In this document: in pieces, positions 9,193 to 28,569 of the stretch | How the letters are laid out: the number at the start of each line of letters is the position of its first letter | Numbering within the stretch: the stretch's first letter is position 1 | Made by a program: the position numbers and the translations under genes | The notes under the pieces: generated by a model | What the model saw: the letters and a program-made list of their open reading frames with translations, nothing else | Told to the model about the DNA's origin: nothing | Databases searched by the model: none | DNA from: Burkholderia contaminans | Lineage (GTDB): Bacteria; Pseudomonadota; Gammaproteobacteria; Burkholderiales; Burkholderiaceae | Direction of reading: 5' to 3' | Assembly: GCF_029633825.1 (NCBI RefSeq) | Contig: NZ_CP090640.1 | Coordinates: 2,790,001 to 2,854,000, forward strand | DNA: 64,000 nt

Positions 9193-9200
9193 TCCAGCGA

Positions 9201-11875: not shown

Positions 11876-12190
11876 TCAGGCCGCCTGGGGCTTGCTGCGC
11901 GACCAGATCAGGTCGTGCGTGCCGTTCTCTCCTTCGATCAGGCGGGCATAGACCGTGGCCGGGAACGAAGGATCGTCGAGGGTCACGGAGATGTACTCCC
12001 GCCCGGCCTCGCTGGTCTTCTTCCACGCCGCGCCGATGTCGTGGCTGGCGGCCTGCAGGCGGAAGTCCGGGGCCTTCTCGTTGTCCCCCTTGTCGTTGGG
12101 CACCAGCTTGACCTTGACGTTGAGCGTCAGGGTGCGAAGCGTGCCGGTGAAGCCGTCTTTGTCTGCGGTGAAGGTGCCGATGTTGGCCAT
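11876..12190 (-). CDS. DUF736 domain protein
   Basis: A 104-aa protein, ATG 12190 with AGGAG eight bases upstream. It matches the DUF736 family throughout: [16 protein letters not shown] at the start, [29 protein letters not shown], and [22 protein letters not shown]736 proteins are small beta-rich proteins carried by conjugative plasmids and ICEs of Alpha- and Betaproteobacteria. The function is not known. It is expressed alone, with an 820-bp gene-free region upstream. Confidence 0.9.
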
Positions 12191-13530: not shown

Positions 13531-13660
13531 GTGCCAGTGAAGGCGGCGGCGTAATGCCCCGGCTATTCGGCTTCAACACCGGGCGCGGCCACCGCCGCGC
13601 CCGGATTATGCGTTTCACCGCGCCCAGGGCGGAACGGCCTGGGCGCGGTGCTGACGATGA

Positions 13661-13870
13661 TCATTCCTTCGTTTCGATGATCCACCACACGGCACGCGGC
13701 AAGGCGCGGCCCGTGATGGGATGTATGTCGGTGAGGTCAGCGCGGGCCGACCAGCCCGAGGGCGGTCGGTAGCCGCGCACGTCGCCATCGCCGTGCCAGC
13801 GGCGGGCGCGCACCGTGCCGGGTGCATAGACCGCCGCCATGCGCGGGCGGTTGGTGGTGGTGCGGGTCAT
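13661..13870 (-). CDS. Conserved small ICE protein (unrecognised)
   Basis: A 69-aa basic protein, ATG 13870 with GGAGAAGCCCCC directly upstream. It is rich in Arg, Pro and Trp (ARRWHGDGDVRGYRPPSGWS) and ends RAVWWIIETKE. No known fold is visible. It lies 62 bp downstream of the parB stop on the same strand and is probably co-transcribed with parB. The strong ribosome-binding site and the operon-like position are the evidence that it is real. Confidence 0.6.
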   Translation of the reverse strand: MTRTTTNRPRMAAVYAPGTVRARRWHGDGDVRGYRPPSGWSARADLTDIHPITGRALPRAVWWIIETKE

Positions 13871-13932
13871 GGGGGCTTCTCCTTGCAGCGAAGCGCCCCG
13901 GTCGAAGCCGGGGCGCTTGCCTTCGGCGTGGG

Positions 13933-15999
13933 TCAAGCGGCCAGCGCCTCGGCGGGTTCATCCGCCATTGCCTCGGCATCCTCCGGGGCGTCCTGCTCCG
14001 GGCCTGCCTCCTGCGCGCTTTCCTTCACTGCCTGCTGCGGGCCTTCGACCTTAAAGATGGCAGGCATCCAACCCGCGCCATCGGCCAGCCGCTCGGCTTC
14101 GCTGGCAATGTCGGCCTTCTTCAGCTTCGCCAGCCGGGAAACCTGATCGGGCGCGTACTCGCCCACGGCTTGCAGAACTGCCGCCTTCGGAACGTGCTTG
14201 AAATACCCCTCGGCGGTCGGCTGCCACCATGCGGCCATGTCGAGGCCCACGGCCTGCGCCAGTTCCTCGCCGGGCTGGTGCGGTGTGGCGCGAGGCGTCA
14301 CCACGTCCACCGTGGAAGCCACGCACACGGCCAGCAGCTTGACCAGTTCGCCTTGCTCCATCGCCAGCAGCGCGGCAAACAGTTCGGCGCTGTCCTCGGG
14401 CAGCTTGCCGCTCCACGCCTGCTGCAATTCACGCAGCGCCACGGCGGCGGGTGACTCGGGCCAGTCCGGGGCCATGCCGTCCAGCCGGTCTTGGACTTTC
14501 AGGCTCACGCCCAGCGGCAGGTCGCGCCCGTAGTAGCGGCCCTGCAAGACGGTCTGCACCATGCCATGCACCAGCGCGGCCACCGCCACCTGCGGATGCC
14601 GGGCCACCTCGATTTGCAGCGCGGCGGTGCGATGGGCGCTCAGGCGCTGGGCCAGTCGGTCGGAAATCGCTGCTGCCTTGGGCGGCTCGTCGTCCTCGCC
14701 TTCGTCATCGTTCGCGGCATCTGGGTCGCTGAACCCTTGGCGCAGCTTCTCCAGTGTGCGCAGTGCCTTGGCCTCGGCCTCGCGCAGCAGTCCGCGATGA
14801 ATCACCACCTCGCCGTTGCGGCCGATGGTGACGATGGCCCCGGCTGCGGCCTTCACGTTCGCGCCGTACCCCTGCAAGCCGTCTTCCAGCGCCTGCAACT
14901 GCTCGCCCAGCCGCTCGCCTTCCTCTTGCAGCGCATCGGCCTTGTCCTCGTCGTCGGCGTCCGTCGCGGCATCAATGGCTTCGGCCACCTCCTGCATCTT
15001 GGCTTGCAGCCTCTCGATGCGCTGTGCTTCGCGCTTGTTCGGCTCGCGGCGCTCCCTCGGCGCACGCTGGAAGGCGTGCAGATCGGCATGGGTCACGCCC
15101 GGCGTGGCATCAGCCCAAGCCCAGCCCTCGGCCTTCACCTCTGCGGCGATGCCCGCCAGCTTGTCTTGCGCCAGTCGTTCCAGCAGCGCGGCGTCGGTCA
15201 GGTACACGCCTGCATCGCCCTCCGCGAACAGGTCGCGGCGGATGCCGCCGCCCGCCTGCTCGTAGGTGTCCAGCCCGACGAAGCGCACCAGCGGATGCCG
15301 GTAGGCGTCAATCTCGCGCTCCGTCAGACGTTCGCGCAAGTGCGAGGGTTGGCGCTGCCATTGCGGCGCATCGTAGAACGCGCATTCCTGCGCGGCGTGG
15401 TCGTCGGTGATGGAGAGCGCCATCAGCTGATCGAGGCTCACGGCATCGGCCCGGTAGTCCTCCATCAAACGCGGCGAGACATTGGCGAGCTTCAAGCGGC
15501 GCTGCACCACCAGCGGCGTAACGGAGAAATCCGCCGCAATGTCCTCAATCGGTCGGCCTTCGGCCACCAGCGCGGCGAAGGCTTCAAACTGGTCTGCTGG
15601 GTGCATGGCTTCGCGCTGCACGTTCTCGGTCAGGCTGGCGGTGCGGGCCGTGCCATCGGCCACCTGCAGGCAAGGCACGTCCCAATCCTTGGCGATACGG
15701 TGCTTCTTTGCCAGCAGCTTGAGGGCCGCAAAGCGTCGGCCACCTGCCACCACCTCGTAATGCAGGTCATCGGCGGCGGGAATCACGATCAGGTTTTGCA
15801 GCAGGCCCACGCGCTGAATGCTCGCGGCCAGCTCGGGGATGGACATGCGCGGGACGGTCTTGCGCACGTTGCGGCCCGTGGGGCGCAGCACCAGCCGCGA
15901 CAGCGGAACCAGAATCATGTGCTTGCTCGGGTCGGCGGCTTGCAGCACGTTTGCGCGGCTGTCGAGGGCTTGAGCTTCGGTGTAAGTAACGGCGTTCAT
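13933..15999 (-). CDS. parB: ParB/RepB/Spo0J-family protein, long ICE type
   Basis: 688 aa, about twice the usual ParB length. The ParB N-terminal domain (residues about 28-130) has the box YEVVAGGRRFAALK and ENVQREAMHPADQFEAF. The HTH that reads the centromere follows (DIAADFSVTPLVVQRRLKL). The middle is charged and coiled-coil-like (REAQRIERLQAKMQEVAEAI), and the C-terminus is acidic (AEAMADEPAEALAA). Such long ParB-like proteins are typical of Tn4371-like and related ICEs. It is not adjacent to parA, so it may serve a separate role such as regulation or protection of the transferred strand. Confidence 0.87.
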   Translation of the reverse strand: MNAVTYTEAQALDSRANVLQAADPSKHMILVPLSRLVLRPTGRNVRKTVPRMSIPELAASIQRVGLLQNLIVIPAADDLHYEVVAGGRRFAALKLLAKKHRIAKDWDVPCLQVADGTARTASLTENVQREAMHPADQFEAFAALVAEGRPIEDIAADFSVTPLVVQRRLKLANVSPRLMEDYRADAVSLDQLMALSITDDHAAQECAFYDAPQWQRQPSHLRERLTEREIDAYRHPLVRFVGLDTYEQAGGGIRRDLFAEGDAGVYLTDAALLERLAQDKLAGIAAEVKAEGWAWADATPGVTHADLHAFQRAPRERREPNKREAQRIERLQAKMQEVAEAIDAATDADDEDKADALQEEGERLGEQLQALEDGLQGYGANVKAAAGAIVTIGRNGEVVIHRGLLREAEAKALRTLEKLRQGFSDPDAANDDEGEDDEPPKAAAISDRLAQRLSAHRTAALQIEVARHPQVAVAALVHGMVQTVLQGRYYGRDLPLGVSLKVQDRLDGMAPDWPESPAAVALRELQQAWSGKLPEDSAELFAALLAMEQGELVKLLAVCVASTVDVVTPRATPHQPGEELAQAVGLDMAAWWQPTAEGYFKHVPKAAVLQAVGEYAPDQVSRLAKLKKADIASEAERLADGAGWMPAIFKVEGPQQAVKESAQEAGPEQDAPEDAEAMADEPAEALAA

Positions 16000-16074
16000 G
16001 GTGAATCTCCAATCAAGTGAAACAAGGGAATGGAGGGGAAACCGCCCCTCCGGCGGGGAACACGTCAGAGGGGG

Positions 16075-16902
16075 TCAGGCCTTGAGGGCGCGCATGCCAT
16101 CGGCCAGCAGCCACAGGGCGCGGTTCAGGCGAATGTCCGAATCAATGCCCTGCACGGGGCGGGTCTGCTGTCTGCGGCCATTGGCGGCGCGGCCATGCAA
16201 TCCGCCCTTGGTCAGGTTCTCCTGCGTGCGGTTGAACACGCTCCACAGGTCGGGGCGGCGGTCGTCGAAGCGGCGCGGCATCAGGATTTGCGATTCCGTG
16301 ACGGGCGCGGGCTTGGTTGGGTCGTCGTACTTGAGGGCCAGCGCGGCGCGGGCGAACACTTCCGATTCCCCGGCATCCAGCGTGATGGCCTGCATGGATT
16401 CGCGCGATTCCTGCGCATGCTCGAAGCCGCTCAGCACCTGATAGGCGCCCTCGATGACATGGCCCGCCACGTCGCCCTTGTGGGGCACGCGCACATCGCC
16501 CACGGTGTCGCCGCAGACAAGGCCATTGCTGCAAACGAAGCGGAACATGCCACCCAGTAATTGATAGCTGCTCGTGCCGTCGTGCGAGTTCAGCAGGATG
16601 ATTTCGTTGGCTTCGCGGGCGTTGATCTGGTTGGCGTGGCGCAGGCGCAGCATGTGTTTCGTGTGCTCGCGCCGGCCCTCGTTGCGAACGCGGGTCTGGC
16701 ACACCATGAAGGGCTGAAACCCCTCTTTGCGAAGCTCGGTCAGCACGGCGGCGGTGGGGATGTAGCTGTACCGCTCGGAGCGGCTTTCATGGGGGGCATC
16801 CGCGAAGATGGACGGGGCCACGCGGCGGATCTGGTCATCGGACAGCGGGGAGTCGCTGCGCAATGCGGGGGAATGGGAAGCGAAGCGGGATGCGAGTTGC
16901 AT
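16075..16902 (-). CDS. DUF932 domain protein
   Basis: A 275-aa protein, ATG 16902 with GGAG seven bases upstream. It matches the DUF932 plasmid/phage-like family: ERYSYIPTAAVLTELRKEGF, KHMLRLRHANQI, EIILLNSHDGTSSYQLLGGM, FVCSNGLVCGD, then a C-terminal segment ending LADGMRALKA. DUF932 proteins are frequent on plasmids and ICEs, and their role is unproven. It lies 75 bp upstream of parB on the same strand, so the two probably share a transcript. Confidence 0.9.
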   Translation of the reverse strand: MQLASRFASHSPALRSDSPLSDDQIRRVAPSIFADAPHESRSERYSYIPTAAVLTELRKEGFQPFMVCQTRVRNEGRREHTKHMLRLRHANQINAREANEIILLNSHDGTSSYQLLGGMFRFVCSNGLVCGDTVGDVRVPHKGDVAGHVIEGAYQVLSGFEHAQESRESMQAITLDAGESEVFARAALALKYDDPTKPAPVTESQILMPRRFDDRRPDLWSVFNRTQENLTKGGLHGRAANGRRQQTRPVQGIDSDIRLNRALWLLADGMRALKA

Positions 16903-17469
16903 GGTCTTTCTCCTGAACAAAAAGGCTGTTGAAGAAAACCGCACACCGGATTCCAAGATTCGAAGCCCAGCCTTTCGGCTGTTCGGTGCGGTCGGCGCGA
17001 GGAACCCGGTTGGCCCTGTTGCCACCGTCTTTCCTGAGTTCATCGCCCGCGACGAAAGGGAGCGCGCGGACGGGGGCCGTCAAGGAAACAAGCGCAGGGT
17101 GGGGGCGGCCCGCAGGCGCAGCCGAGGACACGGCCCTGCGCGCCTTGACGGCACACGGCCGCGGGCTACAGTCGCGGACAAGGTGATGAAGTCAGGGAAG
17201 AGGACTGGACATGGCAACGGCCATCCCACAAGCCGACCGCACGGCAAGCGAAGCGCGCAGGCTCGAAGCTGGAAGCCGGGCCGGAGGCGTCAGCCGAACG
17301 GAGTGAGGGAACGATCGAAGCCCGAAGGGGGCGAGACGCCGCAGGCGGCTCGATGCGCTAGCACGAGAGCGCGACCGGCCATCTCCCAGGTGGCCGGGGA
17401 CGCCCACATGACTTCAATGAAATCCCCGTGGACAGCTACCCACCCAGCCATCGGCAAAATGGCAATGGC
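16903..17469. other. Intergenic region with a partial dispersed repeat (copy E)
   Basis: 567 bp with no supported gene; the long plus-strand frame is an antisense shadow of the DUF932 leader. At 17233-17250 it has GGCAAGCGAAGCGCGCAG, the middle block of the dispersed repeat, followed by GAAGC-rich short motifs to about 17345. The promoter of the DUF932-parB transcript probably lies near 16910-17000. Confidence 0.45.
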
Positions 17470-17691
17470 ATGGACATACGAGCCCTACAAGACGATGAAC
17501 TGATGGCCCAGGCCCGAGACTGGCGGCAACGGGCACTGCGCGGCGAGAAGGACGCACGCGGCCTCGCGCACGAACTGGAATGCGAAGTGCGCCGGCGCTT
17601 CCCCAGGAACAATGCGCCCCATGCACTGCCGCCGATCCAATTGCTCGGCGCCGTGCCGCAAACACCCCAGCGGCGCTGGAAGCCCTGGTAA
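17470..17691 (+). CDS. Hypothetical small ICE protein
   Basis: A 73-aa protein from ATG 17470; a GTG at 17428 would add 14 residues. It has an amphipathic, charged helical region (DDELMAQARDWRQRALRGEK, then AHELECEVRRRF) followed by a proline-rich tail ending RRWKPW. I do not recognise a family. The ordered helix pattern and high-GC codon use argue for real coding, but there is no clear ribosome-binding site. Confidence 0.5.
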   Translation: MDIRALQDDELMAQARDWRQRALRGEKDARGLAHELECEVRRRFPRNNAPHALPPIQLLGAVPQTPQRRWKPW

Positions 17692-17838
17692 GCACCGGCT
17701 CAAAGGCAGCCCGCCCGCATGACTGCGCCACGGCCGATCGGCGCTGATCCCGAAATCCCCCCGAAATAGCGCGAATTTCGAGTGGCCCGGTCACGGGCCA
17801 ATGCCTACCGTGGAATCTCCACCTTCTGGAGAACCACC

Positions 17839-18138
17839 ATGAGCGATCCCATGCAACCCGGAACGCCTGCGCCTGGAGCAGAAGGGCCTGGCATCTTTCT
17901 GCCGACCCTCATCTGGACCACCGACCGCAAGACGGTAGGCAACGAGATGCAGCGCCTGCTGGGACGGCGCGCACAGCTCAACGTCCTGCTGTCCGCCTCC
18001 GAAGAAACGGACGACGGCACCACCTGGTACGCAATGGCCCAGGCCACGCTGAACCAGCTGGACTGCGATATCGAACGTCTCTTCGAGTGGCTGGGCGACT
18101 ACGAACCCGACACACCCACGCCCGAAGTGCCATCGTAA
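17839..18138 (+). CDS. Hypothetical ICE protein, acidic
   Basis: A 99-aa acidic protein, ATG 17839 with CTGGAGAACCACC upstream, a clear ribosome-binding site. After a Pro/Gly-rich start it reads FLPTLIWTTDRKTVGNEMQR and ends with an acidic helix DCDIERLFEWLGDYEPD. No known domain is recognised. It is probably conserved among related ICEs given its position between DUF932/parB and DUF2958. Dispersed repeat copy C begins about 15 bp after its stop. Confidence 0.65.
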   Translation: MSDPMQPGTPAPGAEGPGIFLPTLIWTTDRKTVGNEMQRLLGRRAQLNVLLSASEETDDGTTWYAMAQATLNQLDCDIERLFEWLGDYEPDTPTPEVPS

Positions 18139-18154
18139 TGTCCGGCATGAAGGG

Positions 18155-18280
18155 AGCGATCCGGCACCAGCCGGTTCGCTGCGCGAGAGGGGCGCCAAGC
18201 CTGCGCGGCGGGGATAGCCCGCAGGGCTTTCCCCTGGAGGCAAGCGCAGCGCGCAGCGCCCCGCCAGGGGCGCGAAGGCA
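18155..18280. repeat. Dispersed ICE intergenic repeat, copy C (partial)
   Basis: Contains GATCCGGC, AGAGGGGCGCCAAGC, TGCGCGGCGGGGATA and GGAGGCAAGCGCAGCGCGCA in the same order as copies A and B. The third block (TTGAAGCCGAATGG) is missing because the copy ends at the stop of the convergent gene at 18281. It may act as a shared 3' region of two convergent genes. Confidence 0.68.
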
Positions 18281-18559
18281 TCAGGCCGGGTCGTCGGGGC
18301 GCAGGCTGGCTTCCGACACCGGCATCCACGGCGATGACGAGTCCAGCAGGTAGCGCGCACCGCGCGCGTACAGGCCCGAAAGTCCGCTGGGACGATAAAA
18401 CCCGGTGACGCGGCACCGGAACTGTGCGCCAAACTCGTTGGTATAGATCACCGCGTCGCCGAGCGCAAAGCGCAAGGGCTGGCCGTTCTCCGGTGGGAAC
18501 GGCTTGAACGCATCATGCTCTGCCGTGATTTCGAGGATGTAGTCGTGGTGGCTGCTCAT
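18281..18559 (-). CDS. Hypothetical small ICE protein
   Basis: A 92-aa protein, ATG 18559 with AGGAGGTC upstream. It has a mixed alpha/beta character (YILEITAEHDAFKPFPPENG, FALGDAVIYTNEFGAQFRCR, then YARGARYLLDSS), with a short beta-rich core. I do not recognise the family. It lies directly downstream of the second DUF2958 gene on the same strand (63-bp gap) and is probably co-transcribed with it. Confidence 0.68.
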   Translation of the reverse strand: MSSHHDYILEITAEHDAFKPFPPENGQPLRFALGDAVIYTNEFGAQFRCRVTGFYRPSGLSGLYARGARYLLDSSSPWMPVSEASLRPDDPA

Positions 18560-18622
18560 GGCCTTGACCTCCTGAAATGATTGAGAACGCTCAGGAGCGC
18601 CTTGCGGCGCCCCAGAACCAGG

Positions 18623-18973
18623 TCAGACAACGACACGCCCCGCCAGCCGCGCATCGCGCGCATAGGCGCTCAGCCGCTTCTCGGCACGAAAGTGCAGATC
18701 CCGCTCTACCGGCAAGCCCAGCCGCCCGCGCACGGTCGCCAGTTCGGAAAGACTGACCCAGCCGATTTCCGGCATCCCTAGGCCCAGGTCGCAAAGACCG
18801 AAGGCGTGATCGTGGTCATCGGGATCAATCTCGGTCAGCAGCCAGGTCGCGCCGGCATCCGGCGTGAACAGCTTGACCACTGGGGCCGGATCGAAGTCCG
18901 GGTTCTCCAAGGATTCGCGGCCGTTGGCCAGCAGCACGATGCGCTGCTCGTCCGTGATGAATGCGTGGTTCAT
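18623..18973 (-). CDS. DUF2958 domain protein, copy 2
   Basis: A 116-aa paralogue of the protein at 10657-11004. Shared landmarks are LFTPDAGATWLLTEIDP, LCDLGLGMPEIGWVSLSELA and RDLHFRAEKRLS. ATG 18973 has AGGAG eight bases upstream. Identity to copy 1 looks moderate, so the duplication is old. Function unknown. It is the last backbone gene before the conjugation-cassette cargo. Confidence 0.85.
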   Translation of the reverse strand: MNHAFITDEQRIVLLANGRESLENPDFDPAPVVKLFTPDAGATWLLTEIDPDDHDHAFGLCDLGLGMPEIGWVSLSELATVRGRLGLPVERDLHFRAEKRLSAYARDARLAGRVVV

Positions 18974-19349
18974 GGTGAACTCCTGTAAGGTTACCGGGCG
19001 GAATTGCCCAGCCCTTGCAGGGCACGGCGCAGCGCAAGCAGTCAAAGATCGAAGACGGCCGCCAGGCCGCAAGCGCCGAAGGTGCGCAGTCATTGACGGC
19101 GAGCACGCCGTGGCACGATGAAGGGAACAGCAAGCCGCCACACCTCACCACGCAGCCACCCCGGTATTGACAAGCGTAGCGCGCAGGTCCGAAGCGTCAG
19201 TCCAGATCAGAGCGTCCGGGCTTGAAGCCGGATGACTGCGATTCGGCACGAAGCTCGGGGCGCAGCCCATGAGCCCGACGAAGGAACGTCGGGATGCAGG
19301 CCAAGTTGCCAGCAGGCAGTTGAAAAGTGGTGCTGGCCTTCAGGCGCTG
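18974..19349. other. Intergenic region with a degenerate dispersed repeat (copy D)
   Basis: 376 bp. It has CAAGCGTAGCGCGCAG at 19174-19189, then GGCTTGAAGCCGGATGACTG at 19220-19239 and GGGGCGCAGCCCATGAGCCC at 19257-19276, all degenerate forms of the dispersed repeat. No gene is supported. This is the junction between ICE backbone and cargo. Confidence 0.45.
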
Positions 19350-20420
19350 TCAATTTTCTTGATCTTCCGGATACGCCGCCTGGGGAATCGGCACCCAGCC
19401 ATCGCGGGTGATGCCTGCCCCGATGCGTATGTTCTGGCTTTCAGTTGCCGCCCAGTGCCCACCCCGGTGCAATACGGCGCGAATCACCGACTTCCGCGGA
19501 TGATCCTCATCCGCCTTGGCAGAACTGCATATGGCATTCCAATGGTGCTTGTCCGGCATACTGTTCAACCGTGGGCCGAGCAGTTGATCCAAGACTTCGG
19601 TCGAAACGTTGTGTCGCCCGCCGTGATGGGGCACTTGGAAATACCGAATACCTGGCAGCGCGAGTCCCACGAAAGGTGCGTAGTCGATCACCTCCTGCAG
19701 TGCTTCACGCCCGGCATCGCCAGTAAGCATGACGCGATGACCGTTCAAGACAGCCGACTGCACCACACTCATTTCATTCTCACGACTGGTCGGCTCAGGC
19801 GGGAAATATTCCTCGCCCCACAGGGACTTGATGTAGGCGGTCGCGGCCTTCACTGCCCGGAATATGCTGCTCAGCGCGCTATCAAAAGCACTTTCTTCGA
19901 CAGCTTCCGGTGTCTTCGCGGAGTCCACGATCAGGTCCAAGTAGCGCCCCAGGGTAGGTGCCATGACCGCGAACGGACCGATGCTCTGCCCCTGAAGGGG
20001 GGCATGGATTGGAATTCCCTTCTCCACCGCAATATCCTCAAGAATTGCCGTGGCATCGTAGATTGAGCGCAACTTCCGTCGCAGGGCTTCAACCGATTCA
20101 TAGGTCTCAAAGCGATCGATCAACTGGTCCGCGTATATCCACGGCCGGTTGATCCAAAGATTCCTGACCGTGCATTGCTCCAGGACTTTTCGTAGTCCGT
20201 TGGCGTGATCGCGATCTGGGTGCGTGAGGATCACATGGTCGATGACTGTTGTTCCATAGTACGTCTTCAGATGCTCGACTATCTGATCACCCGTATCCAG
20301 ATACCCACCGTCAACAACGTGCACGCCCTCGGTGCCATTCACCGAGTAGCGCAGCGTGATCGCGTCCCCGCTTTTCGCTGTTTCGACGCCAAGAAAGTCG
20401 ATCTCGAAGTAGTCAGCCAT
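19350..20420 (-). CDS. ComEC-type metallo-beta-lactamase-fold protein (MBL1)
   Basis: A 356-aa predicted metal hydrolase. The metal-binding motif is His67-P-Asp69-R-Asp71-His72 (LTHPDRDHANG), the HxDxDH form of ComEC/Rec2-type enzymes. Further ligands are probably Asp235 in LTGDAGREAL and His265-His266 in QVPHHGGRHN. There is no signal peptide or membrane segment, so it should be cytoplasmic. ATG 20420 has GAGGG upstream; the longer frame is rejected. It is encoded 45 bp after the E2-E1-JAB gene and is the last gene of a three-gene operon. A nuclease or phosphodiesterase effector role is inferred. Confidence 0.82.
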   Translation of the reverse strand: MADYFEIDFLGVETAKSGDAITLRYSVNGTEGVHVVDGGYLDTGDQIVEHLKTYYGTTVIDHVILTHPDRDHANGLRKVLEQCTVRNLWINRPWIYADQLIDRFETYESVEALRRKLRSIYDATAILEDIAVEKGIPIHAPLQGQSIGPFAVMAPTLGRYLDLIVDSAKTPEAVEESAFDSALSSIFRAVKAATAYIKSLWGEEYFPPEPTSRENEMSVVQSAVLNGHRVMLTGDAGREALQEVIDYAPFVGLALPGIRYFQVPHHGGRHNVSTEVLDQLLGPRLNSMPDKHHWNAICSSAKADEDHPRKSVIRAVLHRGGHWAATESQNIRIGAGITRDGWVPIPQAAYPEDQEN

Positions 20421-20465
20421 ACATCCCTCTTGTTTTATGCCAACAAAGTGCCGGTGGCTTTGCAC

Positions 20466-22721
20466 CTACCAGCGATCCACCGCACACGTGAGTCCTGTCG
20501 GAGTCCATACCAACGACACGGCCGGAAGGCCGCCAGCATCCTCGGCGATGCCGCGCAATGTATTTCGGTCGATACCCGAATGTGCGCCGCCTTTCGGGTG
20601 GCTGTGCCACGTTCCTATAAAGGCGAGATACCCCAAAGAGGCCGCGTTTGCGGCGCGCAAATTTTGAACAAGCCCGTTGGTTCCGAGGACGAAGCGGGCG
20701 GCCTCTCGAACACTGTCAGGCGGTGCCTCAACAAGGCCTGCAATGGTGATGGTTCGATTTTCAAACGAGATGCGGCCGATCAAGGCGCCGCCTGTTTCCA
20801 GAGCACCCCAGCGCAGCGCATCAGCATGGATTGCTTGCGCAACTGGGGACAGGACCCGAATGTTCCAGCCACCATCGTCTGCGACTTCAAGCGCAGTGGT
20901 CGGGCCAAGGCTGGCGCGGGTCCATGCCATTCCAAGGCCTTCGGCATCTGAGATTCCGGCGCAAAGCGTCGCTTCCTTCGGAAGCCCATCAACGAGCCAT
21001 CGTTCCAGTTGCAGGCCGGCCAGTGACGTCGACCGCGAAACAACGGCGTCAGACATAGGCATCGTCAGCGAACGACAGTTGTCACCCACGAAAATCCGAG
21101 TCGGCTCAGACGTCTCGCCGGCAATCGACGCACGCAGTTCCGGTGCAAACCGGCAGCACTCGAACAAGAACGCCGTGAGGTCGTCAACTCGGCCGGCACG
21201 GCCAGCTCCTTCGAGCAATACCGCCACACAGCGCCCCTGACCATACATCGCGATCCGTGCCAATCGGGCTGGGGATTGATCCAACGCTGCCGATTGTGTT
21301 TCTGCAGCCAGCACCTGAAGTGACGCCGTCGCATCCACGATGAGGGCCGCATCCTGCGGAACGGTTGCCGCAAACTGTTCCGGATCGACCAAAAGAGTCA
21401 CTGCGTCGGTGTCGAACGCTCGCGATTGAAGATGCGACAGCGATTCAAAGGCTGTCTTCATCAGCGCCGACTTCCGAGGCGGAACCAGAACTGATGCCCG
21501 CTCAATGAGTGCATGCCGCGCGGCGTTGTGAGGCGACATGGGTTCGTTGTCGACGAAAGTCATCGAACCAAAGCCCGCTCGCCCCAGTTGCATCGCGACT
21601 TTCGATCCCACGCTTCCGCAGCCGAGCACGACCAGCGGCTGTGATGTGGCTGCGTATGGAATGCCGGACGTCCTTGCCAGCAGTTCAGGAGACAACGCAT
21701 GCGCGTGAAAGGCCGGGTGAACCGTGGCGTTACGCTCCAGGAGCGATTGAGCGTTGAGTTCATAGCGCACCACATAGGGCAATACCTCGACACTCCTCCC
21801 TGGCGAGCCCACAAGCGACGCTGGCCTTTGCACAGCCAGAATCACAATCGCGTACAAACCATGCACCCAGCCATGCGAGTCCTGTCGCATATCCAGGATT
21901 GAGCGTCCGAAATAACCGTCCACTTCCTGGGCCAAAGCGTCGCGATCAATACCAAGCTCCGCTGCTCGATCGAGCAGCGTCGCGAGATCGACAACTGTCT
22001 CTGGTTGATAGCGTCCGATCACATGCGGGAGGCCGTCGGTCATCGGAGCGCGCGCGATGAAGGCCGCGGCATGGCCGTTCCCCCATTTGCCCAGCTTGTC
22101 GTTGTGAACATCCTGATAAAACACAGGATCGACTTGTGCGGTCAGTTCGGCGTTGATGATGGCGTACAGACCGCCATCGATCGTCACGTAGCCTGCGGGA
22201 ACCACCAGAATCGTGCCGTCAGCGGGAGCGGCGGCCGCGACCTTCTCGGCACTGAATACAACGGTCGAAGGACAGCTGTCTCGGCGCGTTGGTTCCCACC
22301 CCTGCTCCAGGTCCAGGAGTGTTCCGGCCGCGGCCTTGTGCAGCCAGTCGATCAACTGATCGACAACGGCGTCCAGGCCAAACCGATGCAGCAGCTCGTT
22401 CAACGACCCTTCGAATAGGCACGGCGAGACTAACTCGCCTTGGCGATGGGGGTTGATGTGCGGCAAGTTGAGCGGGAAGTCCGCACGTAAGAAGGGCTCG
22501 GGTGCAGACAGGGGCCAGTCACTACCGAATACCAGCACGCACGTCTCGACGGTGCGCACTCCGGTCTCAGAGATACCATTGCGCCGAGACCTGTTCGGCA
22601 GTTGGACCGCAACATCGACTTCAATCTCCGTCGATGCACCAGTTGTCCTTGGCTCGCCAACGCGGATAAGGCCTCGATGCCGCTGAAGTTGATGCAGTGC
22701 GTCTGCGATGGTGCCCGTCAT
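20466..22721 (-). CDS. E2-E1-JAB fusion protein (ubiquitin-like conjugation/deconjugation)
   Basis: 751 aa with three parts. Residues about 30-140 form an E2-like domain with LPHINPHRQGELVSPCLFEG and candidate catalytic Cys101. Residues about 360-580 form an E1/ThiF adenylyltransferase with LVVLGCGSVGSKVA (nucleotide loop at 367-373) and FVDNEPMSPHNAARH. Residues about 630-751 form a JAB/JAMM protease with Glu642, His706, His708, Ser715 and Asp718 (TWHSHPKGGAHSGIDR), one residue shorter than the canonical spacing. Residues 150-350 form a linker region I do not recognise. It should activate, transfer and remove a ubiquitin-like or peptide modifier. The start overlaps the MBL2 stop (ATGA). Confidence 0.88.
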   Translation of the reverse strand: MTGTIADALHQLQRHRGLIRVGEPRTTGASTEIEVDVAVQLPNRSRRNGISETGVRTVETCVLVFGSDWPLSAPEPFLRADFPLNLPHINPHRQGELVSPCLFEGSLNELLHRFGLDAVVDQLIDWLHKAAAGTLLDLEQGWEPTRRDSCPSTVVFSAEKVAAAAPADGTILVVPAGYVTIDGGLYAIINAELTAQVDPVFYQDVHNDKLGKWGNGHAAAFIARAPMTDGLPHVIGRYQPETVVDLATLLDRAAELGIDRDALAQEVDGYFGRSILDMRQDSHGWVHGLYAIVILAVQRPASLVGSPGRSVEVLPYVVRYELNAQSLLERNATVHPAFHAHALSPELLARTSGIPYAATSQPLVVLGCGSVGSKVAMQLGRAGFGSMTFVDNEPMSPHNAARHALIERASVLVPPRKSALMKTAFESLSHLQSRAFDTDAVTLLVDPEQFAATVPQDAALIVDATASLQVLAAETQSAALDQSPARLARIAMYGQGRCVAVLLEGAGRAGRVDDLTAFLFECCRFAPELRASIAGETSEPTRIFVGDNCRSLTMPMSDAVVSRSTSLAGLQLERWLVDGLPKEATLCAGISDAEGLGMAWTRASLGPTTALEVADDGGWNIRVLSPVAQAIHADALRWGALETGGALIGRISFENRTITIAGLVEAPPDSVREAARFVLGTNGLVQNLRAANAASLGYLAFIGTWHSHPKGGAHSGIDRNTLRGIAEDAGGLPAVSLVWTPTGLTCAVDRW

Positions 22722-23911
22722 GATGCTCCGTGCGGCATGGGGGTGCGCGCAGAGGTCACCACGGCAGCGGCCTTCGATCCGGACTCCTTCTTCGAGGGAG
22801 GTTGCACACCCTGAGCGGTTACGGTGAAAACGAGCGGTTCCACGGACTTTTCGCTGGGGTACTCGCCTGTGCAGTAGAACTCGCCTTTTGCTTCGTCCAC
22901 GATCGTCACGTACTCACGCTTCGCACGGATGCAGGGCGGATCGCTGTCATCATCTGCAATCGGCTTGCAGCTGGCGACGATGACGGCGCCGTCACGGGTC
23001 TGCGAAAGCGCCTTGCGAGCATCAGCATCGAGCTTGGCTTTTTCACGGTAGTCGGACCAGCTGTCATAGGACAGCGAATGCCAGGAACAATGATGAGGCG
23101 CCTGCATGATGTCGTACTCAAGCACATCTGCTTCAGCCTTGTGGCGTTGCCACTGGCGGTTCCAGATGAACACCTCAGCATCGCCACCAGTAAGGAATTT
23201 CGCACCATCCGGCGTCTGCGCGTCAGCCGCCAACGTGATGTTCAGAATAACGCTGGACTGGTTCTTGACCAGGCACTCTTCCTCTTCCTCGTCATCCTGG
23301 GCGTCCAGTGGAGCCAAAAGAAACGCAGAAAAGAATGCGGAACTCTTGCCATTGATCGTTGAAAAGCGCGTGTCCACCTTCCGCACAATCGAAGTGAGAT
23401 CATCGGTTTTTCCGTCGATGTCCTCGCCCATGATCTGAATGCGGTCACCGTTCCCGACGGCGAAATTCTTGTCACGGTTCAGTTGCACGCGCCGACGCGC
23501 CTCCGTGTTGAATGCCTTGGCGTCGTCGCTCAAGGTGTGCGTCTTGCTGGCGCGTCGAAACACGATCGGGGACGACCACATCTCGCGGATCACGATTTTC
23601 TTGTCCTTGTCGTCCTTCTTGTCGTCCGGGTACTTGTCGAGTGGCCCTAGGTAGAAGTGTCGCTTCAACCCTCGGCAATGGTCTTGATCCGGGTGGCTCA
23701 GCAGGAACGCATCGACATACGGCCTGCCGTTCTCATCCTTCTTCAGTCGTTCGCGCAAATCCTTGGCGACATCGCGCGCCTCCCCGTCAGGGTCGTCGGC
23801 GTCTTGCCTGATGTTTACGTCGATCAGCAGAGTCGTCGCGTCGAGATCGCCGAACTTGATGAGGGTCATGTCCCCGTTGTCGACGGGAAAAAACGTGATG
23901 GTTGTAGGCAC
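22718..23911 (-). CDS. ComEC-type metallo-beta-lactamase-fold protein (MBL2)
   Basis: 397 aa. The metal motif is His73-P-Asp75-Q-Asp77-His78 (LSHPDQDHCRG). Later ligands are Asp244 in LTGGDAEVF and His273-His274 in QAPHHCSWHS. Compared with MBL1 it has a lysine/aspartate-rich insertion (about residues 95-105) and an acidic patch (about 205-213). The start is GTG 23911, with GGAG five bases upstream, and it begins MPTTITFFPV, which forms the first strand of the fold. It is the first gene of the cassette operon and is coupled to the E2-E1-JAB gene. The substrate is unknown. Confidence 0.82.
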   Translation of the reverse strand: MPTTITFFPVDNGDMTLIKFGDLDATTLLIDVNIRQDADDPDGEARDVAKDLRERLKKDENGRPYVDAFLLSHPDQDHCRGLKRHFYLGPLDKYPDDKKDDKDKKIVIREMWSSPIVFRRASKTHTLSDDAKAFNTEARRRVQLNRDKNFAVGNGDRIQIMGEDIDGKTDDLTSIVRKVDTRFSTINGKSSAFFSAFLLAPLDAQDDEEEEECLVKNQSSVILNITLAADAQTPDGAKFLTGGDAEVFIWNRQWQRHKAEADVLEYDIMQAPHHCSWHSLSYDSWSDYREKAKLDADARKALSQTRDGAVIVASCKPIADDDSDPPCIRAKREYVTIVDEAKGEFYCTGEYPSEKSVEPLVFTVTAQGVQPPSKKESGSKAAAVVTSARTPMPHGAS

Positions 23912-24000
23912 TGGGGTCTCCGGGTAGACGACCGAAGGATGATCGCGTATAGTTAATGTACGACGATTTTTTATATCCGTCTACTTTTTAGGCGTGACTG
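23912..24000. promoter_or_regulatory. Divergent control region of the conjugation cassette
   Basis: 89 bp between the divergent MBL2 and WYL genes, visibly AT-rich compared with the ICE backbone. It carries a separated inverted repeat GTAGACG (23924-23930) and CGTCTAC (23978-23984), and a plus-strand TATAGT (23948-23953). WYL proteins often repress their own divergent defence operons, so this is the likely operator region. No exact promoter is assigned. Confidence 0.5.
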
Positions 24001-24903
24001 ATGCAAAAACCTTCCGTTCCTGCCGCCGAACCTGCTGAGCCTAAGGGGCTAAGTTGGGGGCTGGAGAGCAGACTTCAATTCATCGATTTCCGTCTGCGCT
24101 GGGAGCGGCGCATCAACCGGATGGATCTCACCGAGCACTTTGGTATTTCGGTCCCGCAGGCATCGCTGGACATTTCCAAGTACATGGAGTTGGCGCCGAG
24201 CAACCTGACTTACGACCGCAGCTCCAAGACCTACACGGCAGCGCAGAGTTTTCACCCGCTTTACCAACGAAGCTCGGCGCAACGCTATCTAGCAGAACTG
24301 CTAGCGACAAAGATGGGAATTGTCGAGCCGACGGCCAGCTTCATCGGCTCCGCGCCGGAGACAGATTGGGCCCCGTCCCCTTGGCGCACGATCAATGAGC
24401 AGACCGTCGAAGCAGTGGTGCGCGCAATCCGCCAGCAGGAATCCATTCTGGTGAGCTACCAGTCCATGACGTCGTTGGATGAATCGGTTCGCTTGCTGTC
24501 TCCCCACGCCCTTGGCAATGACGGTTTTCGCTGGCACATGCGCGCGTTTTGCCACAAGCGCCAGCGCTTCAGCGATTTCGTCCTTGCTCGAATCCTGCGC
24601 ATCGATGGCTTCGAGGCGACCCAAGTGGACTCCAACCAAGATTCGCATTGGCAAACTGTATTGACGCTGGTACTTGCACCGCATCCCGATTTGCCTGCAG
24701 CCAAGAAACGAGTCTTAGAGTTGGACTACGGCATGGAAGATGGAGAGGTCAAACTTCCATGCCGCCAAGCGTTTCTGTACTACACGCTGAGACGTTTGGG
24801 TTTGCATACCAAGGAAGCACCAGACCCCCTCGCACAGCAGATCACGCTGAAAAACCGCGATGAAATCCAACCCTATATCGACGCCTTGGCGGCACAGGCC
24901 TGA
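24001..24903 (+). CDS. WYL-domain transcriptional regulator
   Basis: A 300-aa protein. Residues about 20-75 form a winged HTH (RLQFIDFRLRWERRINRMDL, then FGISVPQASLDISKYMELAP). Residues about 140-225 form a WYL domain, in which the signature reads W-H-M (FRWHMRAFCHKRQRFSDFVL). The C-terminus (about 230-300) resembles the WCX extension. The general layout matches CapW/BrxR-type repressors of phage-defence loci. It is divergent from the MBL2/E2-E1-JAB operon and 6 bp from the membrane protein gene. The ligand that would relieve repression is unknown. Confidence 0.88.
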   Translation: MQKPSVPAAEPAEPKGLSWGLESRLQFIDFRLRWERRINRMDLTEHFGISVPQASLDISKYMELAPSNLTYDRSSKTYTAAQSFHPLYQRSSAQRYLAELLATKMGIVEPTASFIGSAPETDWAPSPWRTINEQTVEAVVRAIRQQESILVSYQSMTSLDESVRLLSPHALGNDGFRWHMRAFCHKRQRFSDFVLARILRIDGFEATQVDSNQDSHWQTVLTLVLAPHPDLPAAKKRVLELDYGMEDGEVKLPCRQAFLYYTLRRLGLHTKEAPDPLAQQITLKNRDEIQPYIDALAAQA

Positions 24904-24909
24904 CTTCAC

Positions 24910-25698
24910 ATGACAACAATTTTTGAACTGGTCAAAGACCCCTACGAGCGCAAGGCACGTGTTATCCCTGGCCTTCTTGTGGCCTTACCCGTGCTGGTGC
25001 CGCTGTTGTGCGTCTACGGGGCTCGGCACCCTGTGCTTACAGGTGTGATCGGCCTGCTGGGCGGCTGCGGCGCTATCTATGCACTCGCGAGCGTAGCGCG
25101 CGGACGTGGTAAAAAACTTGAAGAGATGCTGGTCTCAAAATGGGGTGGCATGCCCACGACCATCGCACTACGCCACCGCGACAAGTTCCTTGATGGTGTC
25201 AGCAAGCAGCGTTATCACACGGCGATCACTGCCAAGTTGGGTATCGCCATGCCAACGGCAGAAGAAGAATCAGCAAACCCAGACAAGGCAGACGACATCT
25301 ACATCGGTGCCACTAAGCGGCTTCGCGAACTCACGCGTTCCAACAAGCAGCTCTTGCTGAAAGAGAACATCGCCTATGGATTTCATCGCAACATGCTGGC
25401 GATGAAGCCTGTCGGTATCCTGTCGTGCCTCATGGGCGTCGTCTACGGATTGTTGATTGCAAAGATTTTGCAGGTAGCACCTCTCCAATTTGACTTGGTG
25501 CACCTTGCCGATCCAGGGCTTGCCGCAGGCTTGACATTGCTCATTTCGCTGGCGCTACTTGCCGCATGGCTACTGTATTTCGATCAGGACGCAGTAAGGC
25601 GGATGGGATTCGTCTATGCGGAACGTTTGTTTGAATGTTTGCCGTCGTTGCCTTCTTCCTCCTCACGGAAGAAAGCCGTAAAACCGACTACAGACTGA
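24910..25698 (+). CDS. Four-helix membrane protein of the cassette (unrecognised)
   Basis: 262 aa. Four hydrophobic segments: about residues 19-37 (IPGLLVALPVLVPLLCVYG), 43-62 (VLTGVIGLLGGCGAIYALAS), 166-184 (PVGILSCLMGVVYGLLIAK) and 204-223 (GLAAGLTLLISLALLAAWLL). About 100 soluble residues lie between helices 2 and 3, with charged helices. I do not recognise a family. The 6-bp gap to the WYL gene means they are co-expressed. In defence systems such a protein is often a membrane-acting effector or a sensor. That is inference from context. Confidence 0.75.
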   Translation: MTTIFELVKDPYERKARVIPGLLVALPVLVPLLCVYGARHPVLTGVIGLLGGCGAIYALASVARGRGKKLEEMLVSKWGGMPTTIALRHRDKFLDGVSKQRYHTAITAKLGIAMPTAEEESANPDKADDIYIGATKRLRELTRSNKQLLLKENIAYGFHRNMLAMKPVGILSCLMGVVYGLLIAKILQVAPLQFDLVHLADPGLAAGLTLLISLALLAAWLLYFDQDAVRRMGFVYAERLFECLPSLPSSSSRKKAVKPTTD

Positions 25699-25743
25699 GG
25701 TTCTGCCCAATCTCCAAACAGGCGTATAGCTCCGCAGGTGTGT

Positions 25744-26880
25744 CTACCGCTTCCACGTCTTGGGACGAATCGTTCCGCGAGACTCTAGCAAGAGCCGCGT
25801 GCTTTCCAGTTCCTTTTGCAGCACATCGGTATCCGGCAGAACCATCCGGTAGTTCGCCGCCATGACCTTGGTGGGTAAGCCCTCCAGCGCATACCGCGCC
25901 AGGGCGAGCCCCTTGTCGGCACAAAGAATCAGCCCCACCGGCGGGTTCTCCTCGGGATAGGCCCAGTGTTCCTTGGCATAGTTGCAGTACATGTGCATCT
26001 GGCCTACGTCCGCATGCGTCAGACTCCCCAGCTTCAGGTCGATGATGACCAGGCAGCGTAACTTGCGATGGAACAGCAGCAAGTCCACCCGATACCAGGT
26101 CTGGTCGATGCGCAAGCGCCGCTGCCGTCCAATGAAGGTGAACCCTTCACCCAATTCGAGCAGGAAGTCTTCCAGCCGCCGGATCAAGGCGGCCTCCAGA
26201 TCGGACTCCGAATACTCGTCCTTGAGGTCGAGGAACTCCAGCACATAGGGGTCTTTGATGGCATCGCCGGGCGCGACGGCATCTTCGGGCTTGGCCACCG
26301 CGCCCTTGGCCAGCATCGCCGCCTTGTTTTTCGACAGCGCCGTGCGCTCGTAGAACTGGCTGCCGATCTGCCGATCCAACTGGCGCACGCTCCAGCCGCC
26401 GCGCAAGGCCTCGGCTTCATAGAACTGGCGCGCATGCTCGTCCTTGACCGACAACAGCCGCACATAGGCCGACCACGGCAGCGTGAAGACCTGCGCCAGC
26501 TCGTCCAGCCGCCAAGGCCGCACTGGCTCCGGGGAAGATTCGCCAGACACTGTCTGGCGAATTGGCCGGGTCAGAAAAAACGACCGCATCTGCTGCAGGT
26601 TCTGACGGCTGAAGCCACGGCCGAACTGCTGGGTGAGGTCGCTTGCCAGCCGCTCGATCAACTGCTCGCCATAACCCGCGCGCCGCTTGCCCTGTTGCTC
26701 GGCCTCCACGATGCGGCGGCCAATCTCCCAGTAGCTGGCCGTCATCAGCGCATTGACGCTGCGCGCTGCCGTCTGGCGCGCGGCATCGAGCAGATCCACG
26801 ATGCCGCCGTGGATGCCGGCGTAGCCGGCAGGCACGGCGGCGGGTGCGACTCCCGCCATCGCAGGCGCCTTCTTGGTCAT
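25744..26880 (-). CDS. YhcG-family PD-(D/E)XK nuclease (DUF1016)
   Basis: 378 aa. The N-terminal DUF1016_N helical domain lies at about residues 25-190 (NALMTASYWEIGRRIVEAEQ, FGRGFSRQNLQQMRSFFLT). The C-terminal nuclease has candidate catalytic residues Asp266, Asp281 and Lys283 (WYRVDLLLFH, then LVIIDLKLG), with GQMHMYCNYAKEHW after. The family is common beside restriction systems and on mobile elements, and DNA repair or defence roles have been suggested. ATG 26880 overlaps the integrase stop (ATGA), so the nuclease is translated only with or after the integrase. It is convergent with the membrane protein gene. Confidence 0.88.
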   Translation of the reverse strand: MTKKAPAMAGVAPAAVPAGYAGIHGGIVDLLDAARQTAARSVNALMTASYWEIGRRIVEAEQQGKRRAGYGEQLIERLASDLTQQFGRGFSRQNLQQMRSFFLTRPIRQTVSGESSPEPVRPWRLDELAQVFTLPWSAYVRLLSVKDEHARQFYEAEALRGGWSVRQLDRQIGSQFYERTALSKNKAAMLAKGAVAKPEDAVAPGDAIKDPYVLEFLDLKDEYSESDLEAALIRRLEDFLLELGEGFTFIGRQRRLRIDQTWYRVDLLLFHRKLRCLVIIDLKLGSLTHADVGQMHMYCNYAKEHWAYPEENPPVGLILCADKGLALARYALEGLPTKVMAANYRMVLPDTDVLQKELESTRLLLESRGTIRPKTWKR

Positions 26881-28076
26881 GCAGCCACCTCCGCAGGCCG
26901 CTGCGCCTCGGTGATCGTCTTGCGCCGGTTCGCCACCAGCTCGGCCGCCTTGCGCACCGGATCGTCCTCGGTGTGGACGTAGCGCATGAACATCGCCACG
27001 GTCTTGTGCGCCGTCAGCGCCATGCCGACCTTGACCGGGATGCCCGAGTTGGCAATGTCGGTCGCGGAGCGGTGGCGGATGCCATGCGTGCCGACGTGCG
27101 TGGCGCCCGCCGCCTTGAGGGCGCGGCTCCAGCCGCCGTAATACTCGCCCGTGGTCAGGTGCTTGCCGGGATGGCTTGGAGACGGCAGCACATAGGGAGT
27201 GCCTTCCTGCCGTGGCGCCGTCGAGAGCAGTCGATAGGCTTCCTCGCTCATGGGCTTGGACATGCCGCCCGTCTTGCTGTCCGGCCAGACCACGCGGCGG
27301 TTGTCCAGGTCCACCCAATCCCATCGGAGCGTCACGATTTCGGAGCGGCGGCCGGCGAACTCGAATTGAAGGCGGATCGCCAGCGGGATGACGTAGTTCT
27401 CCAGACCCTCGGCTTCGATGTGCTCCAGTCGCCGAAACAGCTTGCCCATGTCCTCGTCGCTGATGAGGTGGGTGGCCTTGCCGTTGGGGTACATCGGGAC
27501 GTGGCGGCAGGGGTTGGTGCCGTCAGGCCGGTGGCCCCACACCTCGGCCAGGTTGAACATCTTGCGCATCACGCTGAAAGCACGGTTGGCCTCGGCCGGC
27601 TTGTGCGCCATCTTCTTCATCGCCGTGGCCACGTCCGGGCGCTTCACGTCCTGGACCTTCAAACGGCCCAGCATCGGAACGATGCAGCGGTCGATGACGG
27701 CCTGATACCCGCGCTGGGTGCTGGGCTTGTTGCGCTGCTTGGAGTAATCCTCCATGAACTTGGTACACAGCTCCTTGACCGTGGGGGCTGAACGGGCGGC
27801 GGCCTTGGCCGCGCTGGGGTCGCCGCCCCGGCGCACCTCGGCCAGCCATTCCTGGGCCAGCGAGCGGGCCTGCTCGACGGTCAGTTCCCCGTACAGGCCC
27901 AGGGCGGGCTTGCGCCGCTCGCCAGCGTTCGTGCGGTACTGGAGCATGAACACCTTGCGGCCCGCTGGTGTAACCTTGCACAGGAAGCCGGGCACCAGCG
28001 TGTCCCGGAGTTCGACGGCCTGCGCCTGGGGTTGTGCCGCATCGACTGCGGACTTGGTGAGCTTGAGTTTTGCCAC
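26877..28076 (-). CDS. int: Tyrosine site-specific integrase of the ICE (P4-like)
   Basis: 399 aa. An N-terminal arm-binding domain (DUF4102-like) with VPGFLCKVTPAGRKVFMLQY comes first, then a SAM-like core-binding domain at about residues 100-190. The catalytic domain has Arg in FEFAGRRSEIVTLRW (243/244), His331-x-x-Arg334, His357 and nucleophile Tyr366 (FMRYVHTEDD). GTG 28076 with GGAG six bases upstream is the best start; the ATG-led longer frame reaches back toward the attachment region. It lies 218 bp from the tRNA-Leu 3' end and points away from it, the standard layout for a tRNA-targeting ICE. Confidence 0.92.
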   Translation of the reverse strand: MAKLKLTKSAVDAAQPQAQAVELRDTLVPGFLCKVTPAGRKVFMLQYRTNAGERRKPALGLYGELTVEQARSLAQEWLAEVRRGGDPSAAKAAARSAPTVKELCTKFMEDYSKQRNKPSTQRGYQAVIDRCIVPMLGRLKVQDVKRPDVATAMKKMAHKPAEANRAFSVMRKMFNLAEVWGHRPDGTNPCRHVPMYPNGKATHLISDEDMGKLFRRLEHIEAEGLENYVIPLAIRLQFEFAGRRSEIVTLRWDWVDLDNRRVVWPDSKTGGMSKPMSEEAYRLLSTAPRQEGTPYVLPSPSHPGKHLTTGEYYGGWSRALKAAGATHVGTHGIRHRSATDIANSGIPVKVGMALTAHKTVAMFMRYVHTEDDPVRKAAELVANRRKTITEAQRPAEVAA

Positions 28077-28255
28077 GATGACTCCTCGGAAAGACCCGAT
28101 TCCCAAGAGCCATGTAGGGGCCATCAGAGGGGAAGCCGGGTCAGGTTTCGGAAAGCACCGGCATATGTTGGACTCGCCTAAGTTATTGATAAACCTGCTG
28201 TATCGGGCTTCGGCGTAGTCCAGCAAAGTTCGGTGCTGGAGTCATGGTGAAATGA

Positions 28256-28284
28256 AAAAAGGCCGGCTAGAAGCCGACCTTTTT
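28256..28284 (-). terminator. Hairpin downstream of tRNA-Leu copy 1
   Basis: AAAAAGG-c-CGGC, loop, GCCG-a-CCTTTTT. It is almost the same sequence as at 42042-42070 next to copy 3. It lies 3' of the minus-strand tRNA and, by position, on the ICE side of the attachment site. Confidence 0.75.
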
Positions 28285-28294
28285 ATAAAACAGA

Positions 28295-28381
28295 TGGTGC
28301 CCAGGAGAGGACTCGAACCTCCACGATGTTGCCACCGCTAGGACCTGAACCTAGTGCGTCTACCAATTCCGCCACCTGGGC
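28295..28381 (-). tRNA. tRNA-Leu(CAG), copy 1, ICE attachment gene
   Basis: 87 nt including encoded CCA. The 5' end is GCCCAGG and pairs with CCTGGGC at the 3' end. The anticodon loop reads TTCAGGT (anticodon CAG), and the T loop is GGTTCGAGTCC. The identical tRNA sequence occurs at 40454-40540 and 42081-42167. The ICE integrase gene is on its 3' side, so this gene probably contains the attachment core. Confidence 0.95.
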
Positions 28382-28569
28382 ACGTTTCGCTTGTTGCTGC
28401 ATCGCGAAAGAACGCAATTATAGCGTGTCCGAAGAGGCTGTCAACACAATTTCAGATCGCGAACGAAAATAATTGAGGACGCTGGTCGGACGGGCGAAGG
28501 AGGGGAGGTGGGCACGCGCGCCGTTTGAACCCGTCCGCATTTTTGTGGGCGACGCGGTTGAACCGCGCG

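Follow-up and report, generated by a model that had tools for sequence, protein, structure and literature searches.

The window, by which we mean the whole 64,000-nt stretch of Burkholderia contaminans DNA analysed here, carries a five-gene cassette in which a known core is joined by three further genes, and the metallo-hydrolase of this core ends in a conserved glycine tail. The core consists of a triple E2-E1-JAB protein and a protein of the metallo-beta-lactamase (MBL) fold, here MBL2, and is already known as operon 6a (2006) and as the 'anti-phage 6A-MBL system' of NCBIfam. Because the tail is conserved and the catalytic residues of E2, E1 and JAB are kept, MBL2 is probably, judged from sequence and by analogy, the conjugated partner, standing where type II CBASS has its CD-NTase, and it may itself be the tag attached by the ubiquitin-type machinery. 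We consider it reasonably probable that the 6A-MBL system works like type II CBASS, with a metallo-hydrolase replacing the CD-NTase.

The glycine tail, the five-gene form and what looks like an exchangeable pair, formed by the membrane protein and a second metallo-hydrolase (MBL1), were not found described, among the matches listed, in the openly licensed literature of PubMed Central (CC0, CC BY and CC BY-SA). A candidate CapW operator between the divergent genes was likewise not met in a description. The same literature yielded no paper under the names '6A-MBL' and 'PDC-M48', and the available part of PMC11354881 contains no mention of 'lactamase' or 'Cap2'. The tail may already have been described in subscription papers or preprints, or noticed by those who defined 6A-MBL.

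Anatomy and regulation of the cassette

The cassette fills a 6349-nt block made of two divergent units. The operon on the minus strand begins with MBL2 (22718..23911, 397 aa), which matches NCBIfam NF058524 (6A-MBL_enzyme, the 'MBL-fold protein' of the anti-phage 6A-MBL system) with 445.7 bits against a cut-off of 220. This match stops at residue 368 of 397, short of the C-terminal tail ...SARTPMPHG|AS, whose codons for TPMPHGAS lie at 22721..22744 (minus strand) and in which Gly395 is the last conserved residue. The E2-E1-JAB gene (20466..22721, minus strand, 751 aa) comes next, its start sharing 4 nt with the stop of MBL2 (ATGA). Its product matches NF058523 ('anti-phage 6A-MBL system cap2_3 protein') with 552.4 bits against a cut-off of 320, and in Pfam it contains, in this order, Prok-E2_A (208 bits), ThiF (43.5) and Prok-JAB (44.7). 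After a further 45 nt follows MBL1 (19350..20420, minus strand, 356 aa), a different metallo-hydrolase that matches Lactamase_B in Pfam (26.3) and PDC-M48B in PADLOC (PDLC04676, 515 bits) and has an acidic C-terminus with no Gly tail. On the plus strand, divergent from MBL2, a WYL repressor of the CapW type (24001..24903, 300 aa; WYL 43.6 in Pfam) is separated by 6 nt from a membrane protein (24910..25698, 262 aa; 4TM family A) with four hydrophobic stretches at residues 18-36, 42-60, 168-186 and 204-222 in a simple Kyte-Doolittle scan.

The first-pass annotation, made from the letters alone, had read the same five genes with the same domains, and its overall observation is confirmed. Only the start of MBL1 had to be moved from 20465 to residue M16 at position 20420, the most likely start because the PADLOC model spans residues 16-371 and the annotated Acinetobacter copy begins there. 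Its domain calls were borne out by Pfam profiles for E2, ThiF, JAB, MBL1 and WYL, and were left without a Pfam family at E up to 0.1 for MBL2 and the membrane protein. Among the five genes no nucleotidyltransferase (CD-NTase) was matched by the Pfam, PADLOC and NCBIfam profiles, and the block, which the five modelled genes fill, showed no beta-grasp ubiquitin-like gene. Matches of the triple protein to solved structures were distant and involved E1 proteins (MccB, Cap2 in 7tsq and 7to3, BubCD and others) and one JAB (9ild). MBL2 showed no credible relative among solved structures (best E 0.16), the membrane protein matched one de novo design (E 0.0026), and MBL1 had a weak match to ComEC in the PDB.

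The counts that follow refer to a non-random set of 71 6A loci, 70 of them with a core ORF, which form 35 clusters at 80% identity. The set comprises 40 loci from one genome scan, 17 plasmid regions hand-picked for diversity from 299 and 247 records, a single representative of the 12 Acinetobacter plasmids that carry the block, one locus from a viral contig, the window itself and 11 loci from further genomes. L088, with an MBL2-like gene and no E2-E1-JAB in the stretch fetched, was not counted among the 6A loci and served as a control.

By sequence, the WYL gene is a homologue of CapW, a CBASS type of repressor: its protein scored 246.6 bits (7tb6) and 248.3 bits (7tb5) against CapW of S. maltophilia by phmmer, and 187.9 bits against 9c5g. 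CapW binds palindromes covering the -10 box of its own CBASS promoter, according to the available part of PMC9122588. The 89-nt gap between the WYL and MBL2 genes contains a 17-nt imperfect palindrome with two mismatches (23946..23962) that overlaps the predicted -10 hexamer of the WYL unit and is a candidate CapW operator; the pattern was drawn by eye from relatives, and 0.12 matches to it are expected in the window. A CapW-type gene adjoins the core in 17 of the 35 clusters. Its place is taken in L106 and L111 by annotated HTH and ImmA/IrrE genes, likewise divergent from MBL2, which resemble CapH and CapP, regulators named in the part of PMC13373217 that was available. Behind the CapW-type gene of L105 and L108 lies a 227-aa gene with an annotated nucleotidyltransferase domain, and L137 was added to these two by likeness.

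Co-occurrence, mobility and prevalence

All five genes are genuine, and they move together as a block more than chance would explain. The whole block was found by megablast end to end at 87.2% in 12 Acinetobacter plasmids, in one of which (NZ_CP061544) the membrane gene was matched in two pieces only. Against the full window, the similarity of two of these plasmids begins at 19350, the end of MBL1, and ceases 36 nt beyond the membrane gene. Among the 40 loci of the genome scan, all five genes were unbroken in 21 and all present, with one gene broken or cut short, in five more (L017, L026, L027, L030 and L042), while L024 and L035 are cut by their own contigs. The second MBL of the window's kind is absent from 12 of the 40; in these 12 and in L035 the core identity is at most 74%. 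A search for the same five-gene order had been proposed in the first-pass annotation, and the order does recur.

The block had also been described as cargo near an integrase, and it indeed adjoins a tyrosine integrase at a tRNA-Leu, with relaxase/DUF3363, ParB, DUF932 and DUF2958 genes upstream. Positions 10467-28259 of the window (or a few bases more) were matched at about 100% nucleotide identity by loci of Xenophilus, Achromobacter and Bordetella and at 98% by a locus of Azospirillum, and therefore the element itself moves between classes. In locus L010, from Xenophilus azovorans DSM 13620, each of the five proteins is 100% identical to its counterpart in the window; a further locus lies on a plasmid of E. 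coli SE11. Between cassette and integrase we detected a YhcG/DUF1016 PDDEXK nuclease gene (25744-27324), the start of which is probably later because its ORF overlaps the integrase frame. Downstream of the integrase lie three copies of tRNA-Leu(CAG) (28226-28400, 40454-40559 and 42036-42173) that are 98-99% alike including some flank and are possibly att repeats or the bounds of a second element.

The 6A core is uncommon. Counting the window's own genome each time, 7 of 369 genomes at the level of the class have the triple protein above its cut-off, and MBL2 passes its own cut-off in 4 of 399 genomes at the level of the order (five if E up to 1e-30 is accepted) and in 7 of 398 at that of the phylum; an E. 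coli form of MBL2 is present in 29 of 5426 complete E. coli genomes. MBL2 had no match in 50,697 phage records, and the triple protein gave one locus in viral_contigs. The window's own genome (G000) holds a second, diverged 6A locus on contig 3 (L048, 161973-165299), which encodes an MBL2 with an SHG|KG tail, an E2-E1-JAB protein of 30% identity, two membrane proteins (one of type 4TM-B, one with 3TM) and a further MBL. In L026, L027, L017, L042, L141 and L142 a gene is broken, be it the triple protein, one of the two MBLs or the membrane gene, as might be expected of a costly system.

The block was first interpreted as a ubiquitin-like defence cassette. The anti-phage name of its core in NCBIfam, the CapW homologue and the mobile elements support this, and the core turned out to be described since 2006 and already named. 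Alternatively, the cassette could be a module for maintenance of, or competition between, mobile elements instead of phage defence. Its presence on integrative elements and plasmids and the broken gene of L017, L026, L027 and L042 would suit such a module, but the curated anti-phage name and the CBASS type of repressor point the other way, and we consider it quite unlikely.

The glycine tail of MBL2 and the conjugation enzymes

In all 33 clusters with a separate, readable MBL2, this protein closes with a flexible, low-complexity linker, then [HAYF]G and 0-6 residues, whereas the pattern [HAYF]G.{0,6}$ occurs in 2 of 24 control MBLs (L085 and L098). Twelve of the controls belong to the MBL1 family, 11 are second MBLs of other kinds, and the last is L088, which has no neighbouring E2-E1-JAB and no tail. 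The tail count excludes L035, which lacks a core ORF, L036, whose frame is fused, and the cluster of L090/L091, in which the core is present and no MBL2 was found. Examples of the tail are PHG|AS (the window), SHG|KG (the other copy in the window's genome), AHG (Sphingobium), TYG|SKPI (Emticicia, Bacteroidota) and RAG|VSNQ (E. coli). Ala, Gly, Ser, Thr and Pro make up a mean fraction of 0.61 of the linker in MBL2 against 0.37 in the controls. All 32 aligned relatives share P391, H394 and G395, whereas most of the linker is variable.

The [HAYF]G pattern was picked after the first sequences had been viewed. Once it had been fixed, further loci were fetched, and all five intact MBL2 genes among them fit it, a small test in which L137 is close to L105/L108 and the E2-E1-JAB gene of L141 is interrupted; the broken locus L142 was excluded, though its MBL2 fragment fits. 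A separate set of 120 listed MBL2 homologues (out of 3461) showed P[HR]G.{0,6}$ in 112 cases, and of the other eight, four end in HG and four (lengths 320-410) have no tail. Looser tests separate MBL2 from the controls less well: a Gly within the last 7 residues is found in 33/33 clusters versus 12/24 controls, and an exactly terminal Gly in 17/33 versus 5/24.

Of the five controls with an exactly terminal Gly, four are second MBLs of 6A loci (L031, L036, L085 and L087) that lack the long linker (KRG, RNG, YHG and NNG, respectively); they might be E1-E2 substrates too, or the ending might be due to chance. L036 further encodes MBL2 and E2-E1-JAB in one 1135-aa open frame (8831-12238), a natural in-frame fusion with no Gly tail.

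The residues of the triple protein are equally conserved. E2 residues H88 and C101, the latter being the E2 cysteine already singled out by the first reading, are kept in 35 of 35 clusters, as are G367, G369, G372, R381, D391, R402, K417 and C549 of E1 and E642, H706, H708, S715 and D718 of JAB, all of which we take to be the catalytic residues of their families. About half of the clusters have a short variable extension after the Gly of MBL2 that looks like a propeptide for JAB. A comparable arrangement is known from CBASS, where, according to the available part of PMC10097602, the C-terminal residue of cGAS is Gly/Ala only in operons having both Cap2 and Cap3, the Cap2-cGAS thioester forms at this residue and Cap3 cleaves at the cGAS C-terminus.

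Two other explanations of the tail were weighed. It could be conserved for DNA reasons, for example translational coupling to the next gene, and not for the protein, as the ATGA overlap of MBL2 stop and E2-E1-JAB start in the window would allow; yet the tail is kept without overlap, for instance in L106 with 74 nt from the MBL2 stop to the annotated E2-E1-JAB start, and it occurs with different residues (PHG, SHG, RAG, TYG), and we judge this very improbable. Or MBL2 could be a nuclease effector and not a modifier, its tail a docking peptide for E2-E1-JAB, and the protein conjugated by E2-E1 a ThiS/MoaD-like one of the host. The predicted metal ligands of MBL2 (H73, D75, D77, H78, D244, H273 and H274) are kept in 33/33 clusters, from which MBL2 is probably an active enzyme, and this, like the block's five genes with no beta-grasp gene seen among them, agrees with an effector. 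A docking peptide, however, needs no Gly end with 0-6 variable residues beyond it, and the tail pattern matches the proven CBASS case as far as the available part of PMC10097602 describes it. We regard the docking peptide as unlikely and prefer MBL2 as the conjugated partner; its metal ligands being kept, the modifier would therefore be an enzyme. Operon 6a as described in 2006 has conjugation enzymes and no ubiquitin-like protein, and a Gly-tailed MBL would supply the missing modifier.

A possibly exchangeable pair and comparison with known systems

Both MBLs had at first been proposed as effectors or targets, and the two probably do not share one role. The Gly tail makes MBL2 more likely the conjugated partner, and MBL1, of the PDC-M48B kind and lacking a tail, seems to be paired with the membrane protein. 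By hand tally (a raw count), 25 of the 35 clusters have next to the core a small protein with three or more predicted TM helices, five a small protein with two, and two a patatin (L086 and L092); three clusters (L043, L090 and L094) have no neighbour of either the membrane or the patatin type. Support for such neighbours comes from homology: profile searches placed the window's 4TM family A beside the core in 16 of the 35 clusters. Homologues of the 4TM protein directly follow E2-E1-JAB in 6A loci elsewhere. Members of both family A and family B are also met next to MBL1-type genes whose fetched surroundings show no 6A core. The patatin-type genes (L086:11915-13090 and L092:12794-14014 by Pfam, L141:3153-4331 by eye only) recall the CapV effector of CBASS.

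A second MBL was seen in 13 of the 35 core clusters and not in the other 22. PADLOC assigned seven such neighbours besides MBL1, six best to a PDC-M48B model and that of L086 best to LmuA; in Pfam only the neighbour in L036 was above cut-off, the others being weak or blank. L036 also contains a second 4TM gene (13415-13933) related to one beside the MBL1-type gene of L100. Ten MBL1-type loci whose fetched stretch contains no 6A core were examined, and all ten had a multi-TM neighbour, that of L126 not being cleanly delimited. Five of these ten were hand-picked from 43 plasmid records and five come from a group of seven genomes, which also includes the window and one 6A locus.

The best sign of a functional pair comes from L085. 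This locus shares positions 20428-24937 of the window at 88% nucleotide identity (E2-E1-JAB, MBL2 and CapW), followed by a different 4TM gene and a different MBL. Both differ together, which suggests that MBL1 and the membrane protein form one functional pair. Such pairs also occur away from the core, and with the joint replacement in L085 they look exchangeable. In the C-terminal tail of the 4TM protein, lysines considered as acceptors gave no signal, at least two being present in the last 20 residues in 18 of 30 6A-linked proteins versus 7 of 9 stand-alone ones.

As such pairs live alone elsewhere, MBL1 and the 4TM protein may be a neighbour of the core and not part of the system. Two systems would then stand side by side, namely a complete 6A-MBL core with CapW and an independent PDC-M48-like pair landed in the same island. 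The ten coreless MBL1-type loci and the 22 clusters in which no second MBL was seen favour this. In the window, however, the pair is split around the core, with the 4TM gene in the CapW unit and MBL1 behind E2-E1-JAB, and L085 retains the core while differing in both MBL and 4TM. 4TM relatives also follow the core with no second MBL in L099, L106-L108, L111 and L113, and the slot is filled by more than one type of second MBL. We consider two independent systems unlikely.

From the sequences we infer a system of defence, conjugation and killing that might work in the following order. CapW would keep both divergent units off until, upon infection or DNA damage, it lets go and the genes come on. 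JAB would trim the 0-6 residues past the Gly of MBL2, E1 would adenylate this Gly, and E1 and E2 would carry MBL2 as a thioester and conjugate it to a target, a step that JAB could reverse. Conjugation would prime or place MBL2, which might then act on nucleic acid or a nucleotide signal, or mark its target, and the membrane protein and MBL1 would carry out killing or growth arrest at the membrane.

In its full form our reading places 6A beside CBASS as a sister class. Its ubiquitin-like modifier would be an active, Gly-tailed metallo-hydrolase that is matured by JAB, conjugated by E1-E2 and in control of interchangeable effectors (a 4TM protein with a second MBL, or a patatin). The tag would then be an enzyme, and neither a small beta-grasp protein nor a CD-NTase. 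We propose this tentatively, as a reading with slightly less than an even chance of being right. If true, it would point to the Cap2/Cap3 chemistry as a general means of priming unlike enzymes, and to pairs of an MBL and a 4TM protein as plug-in effectors common to several candidate defence systems.

PDC-M48 is represented in the cassette by MBL1, a PDC-M48B protein, which differs in that the window's MBL goes with a 4TM protein and a 6A core. PDC-M48A was not listed by PADLOC for MBL2, the WYL protein or the 4TM protein, nor among the best 25 of 51 families for E2-E1-JAB. Bil and Bub are likewise bacterial E1/E2/JAB pathways, and Bub operons often adjoin CapW or CapH and CapP in the available part of PMC13373217; the window's block differs in that no beta-grasp ubiquitin-like gene was seen in it.

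By name the core belongs to 6A-MBL, the triple protein and the adjoining MBL2 both lying far above the curated cut-offs. Operon 6a was described as a triple E2-E1-JAB protein with a metallo-beta-lactamase almost always adjoining, a simple operon of usually two genes, in the part of the 2006 text that was available (Iyer 2006, PMC1779556), which does not mention a Gly tail; the window adds CapW, the 4TM protein and the second MBL. The same part describes 6b, with a pol-beta nucleotidyltransferase, as having an E2+E1 protein and a JAB closely related to those of 6a, and in our own reading 6b corresponds to today's type II CBASS. That system comprises the E1-E2 protein Cap2, the JAB protein Cap3, a CD-NTase and, in some cases, CapW. 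The cassette shares with it the E1-E2 and JAB chemistry, a partner gene with a C-terminal Gly and the CapW-type repressor, and relatives of its core have membrane or patatin genes beside them. The cassette differs from type II CBASS in that it has no CD-NTase, joins E2-E1 and JAB in a single chain, and has an MBL as its Gly-tailed partner.
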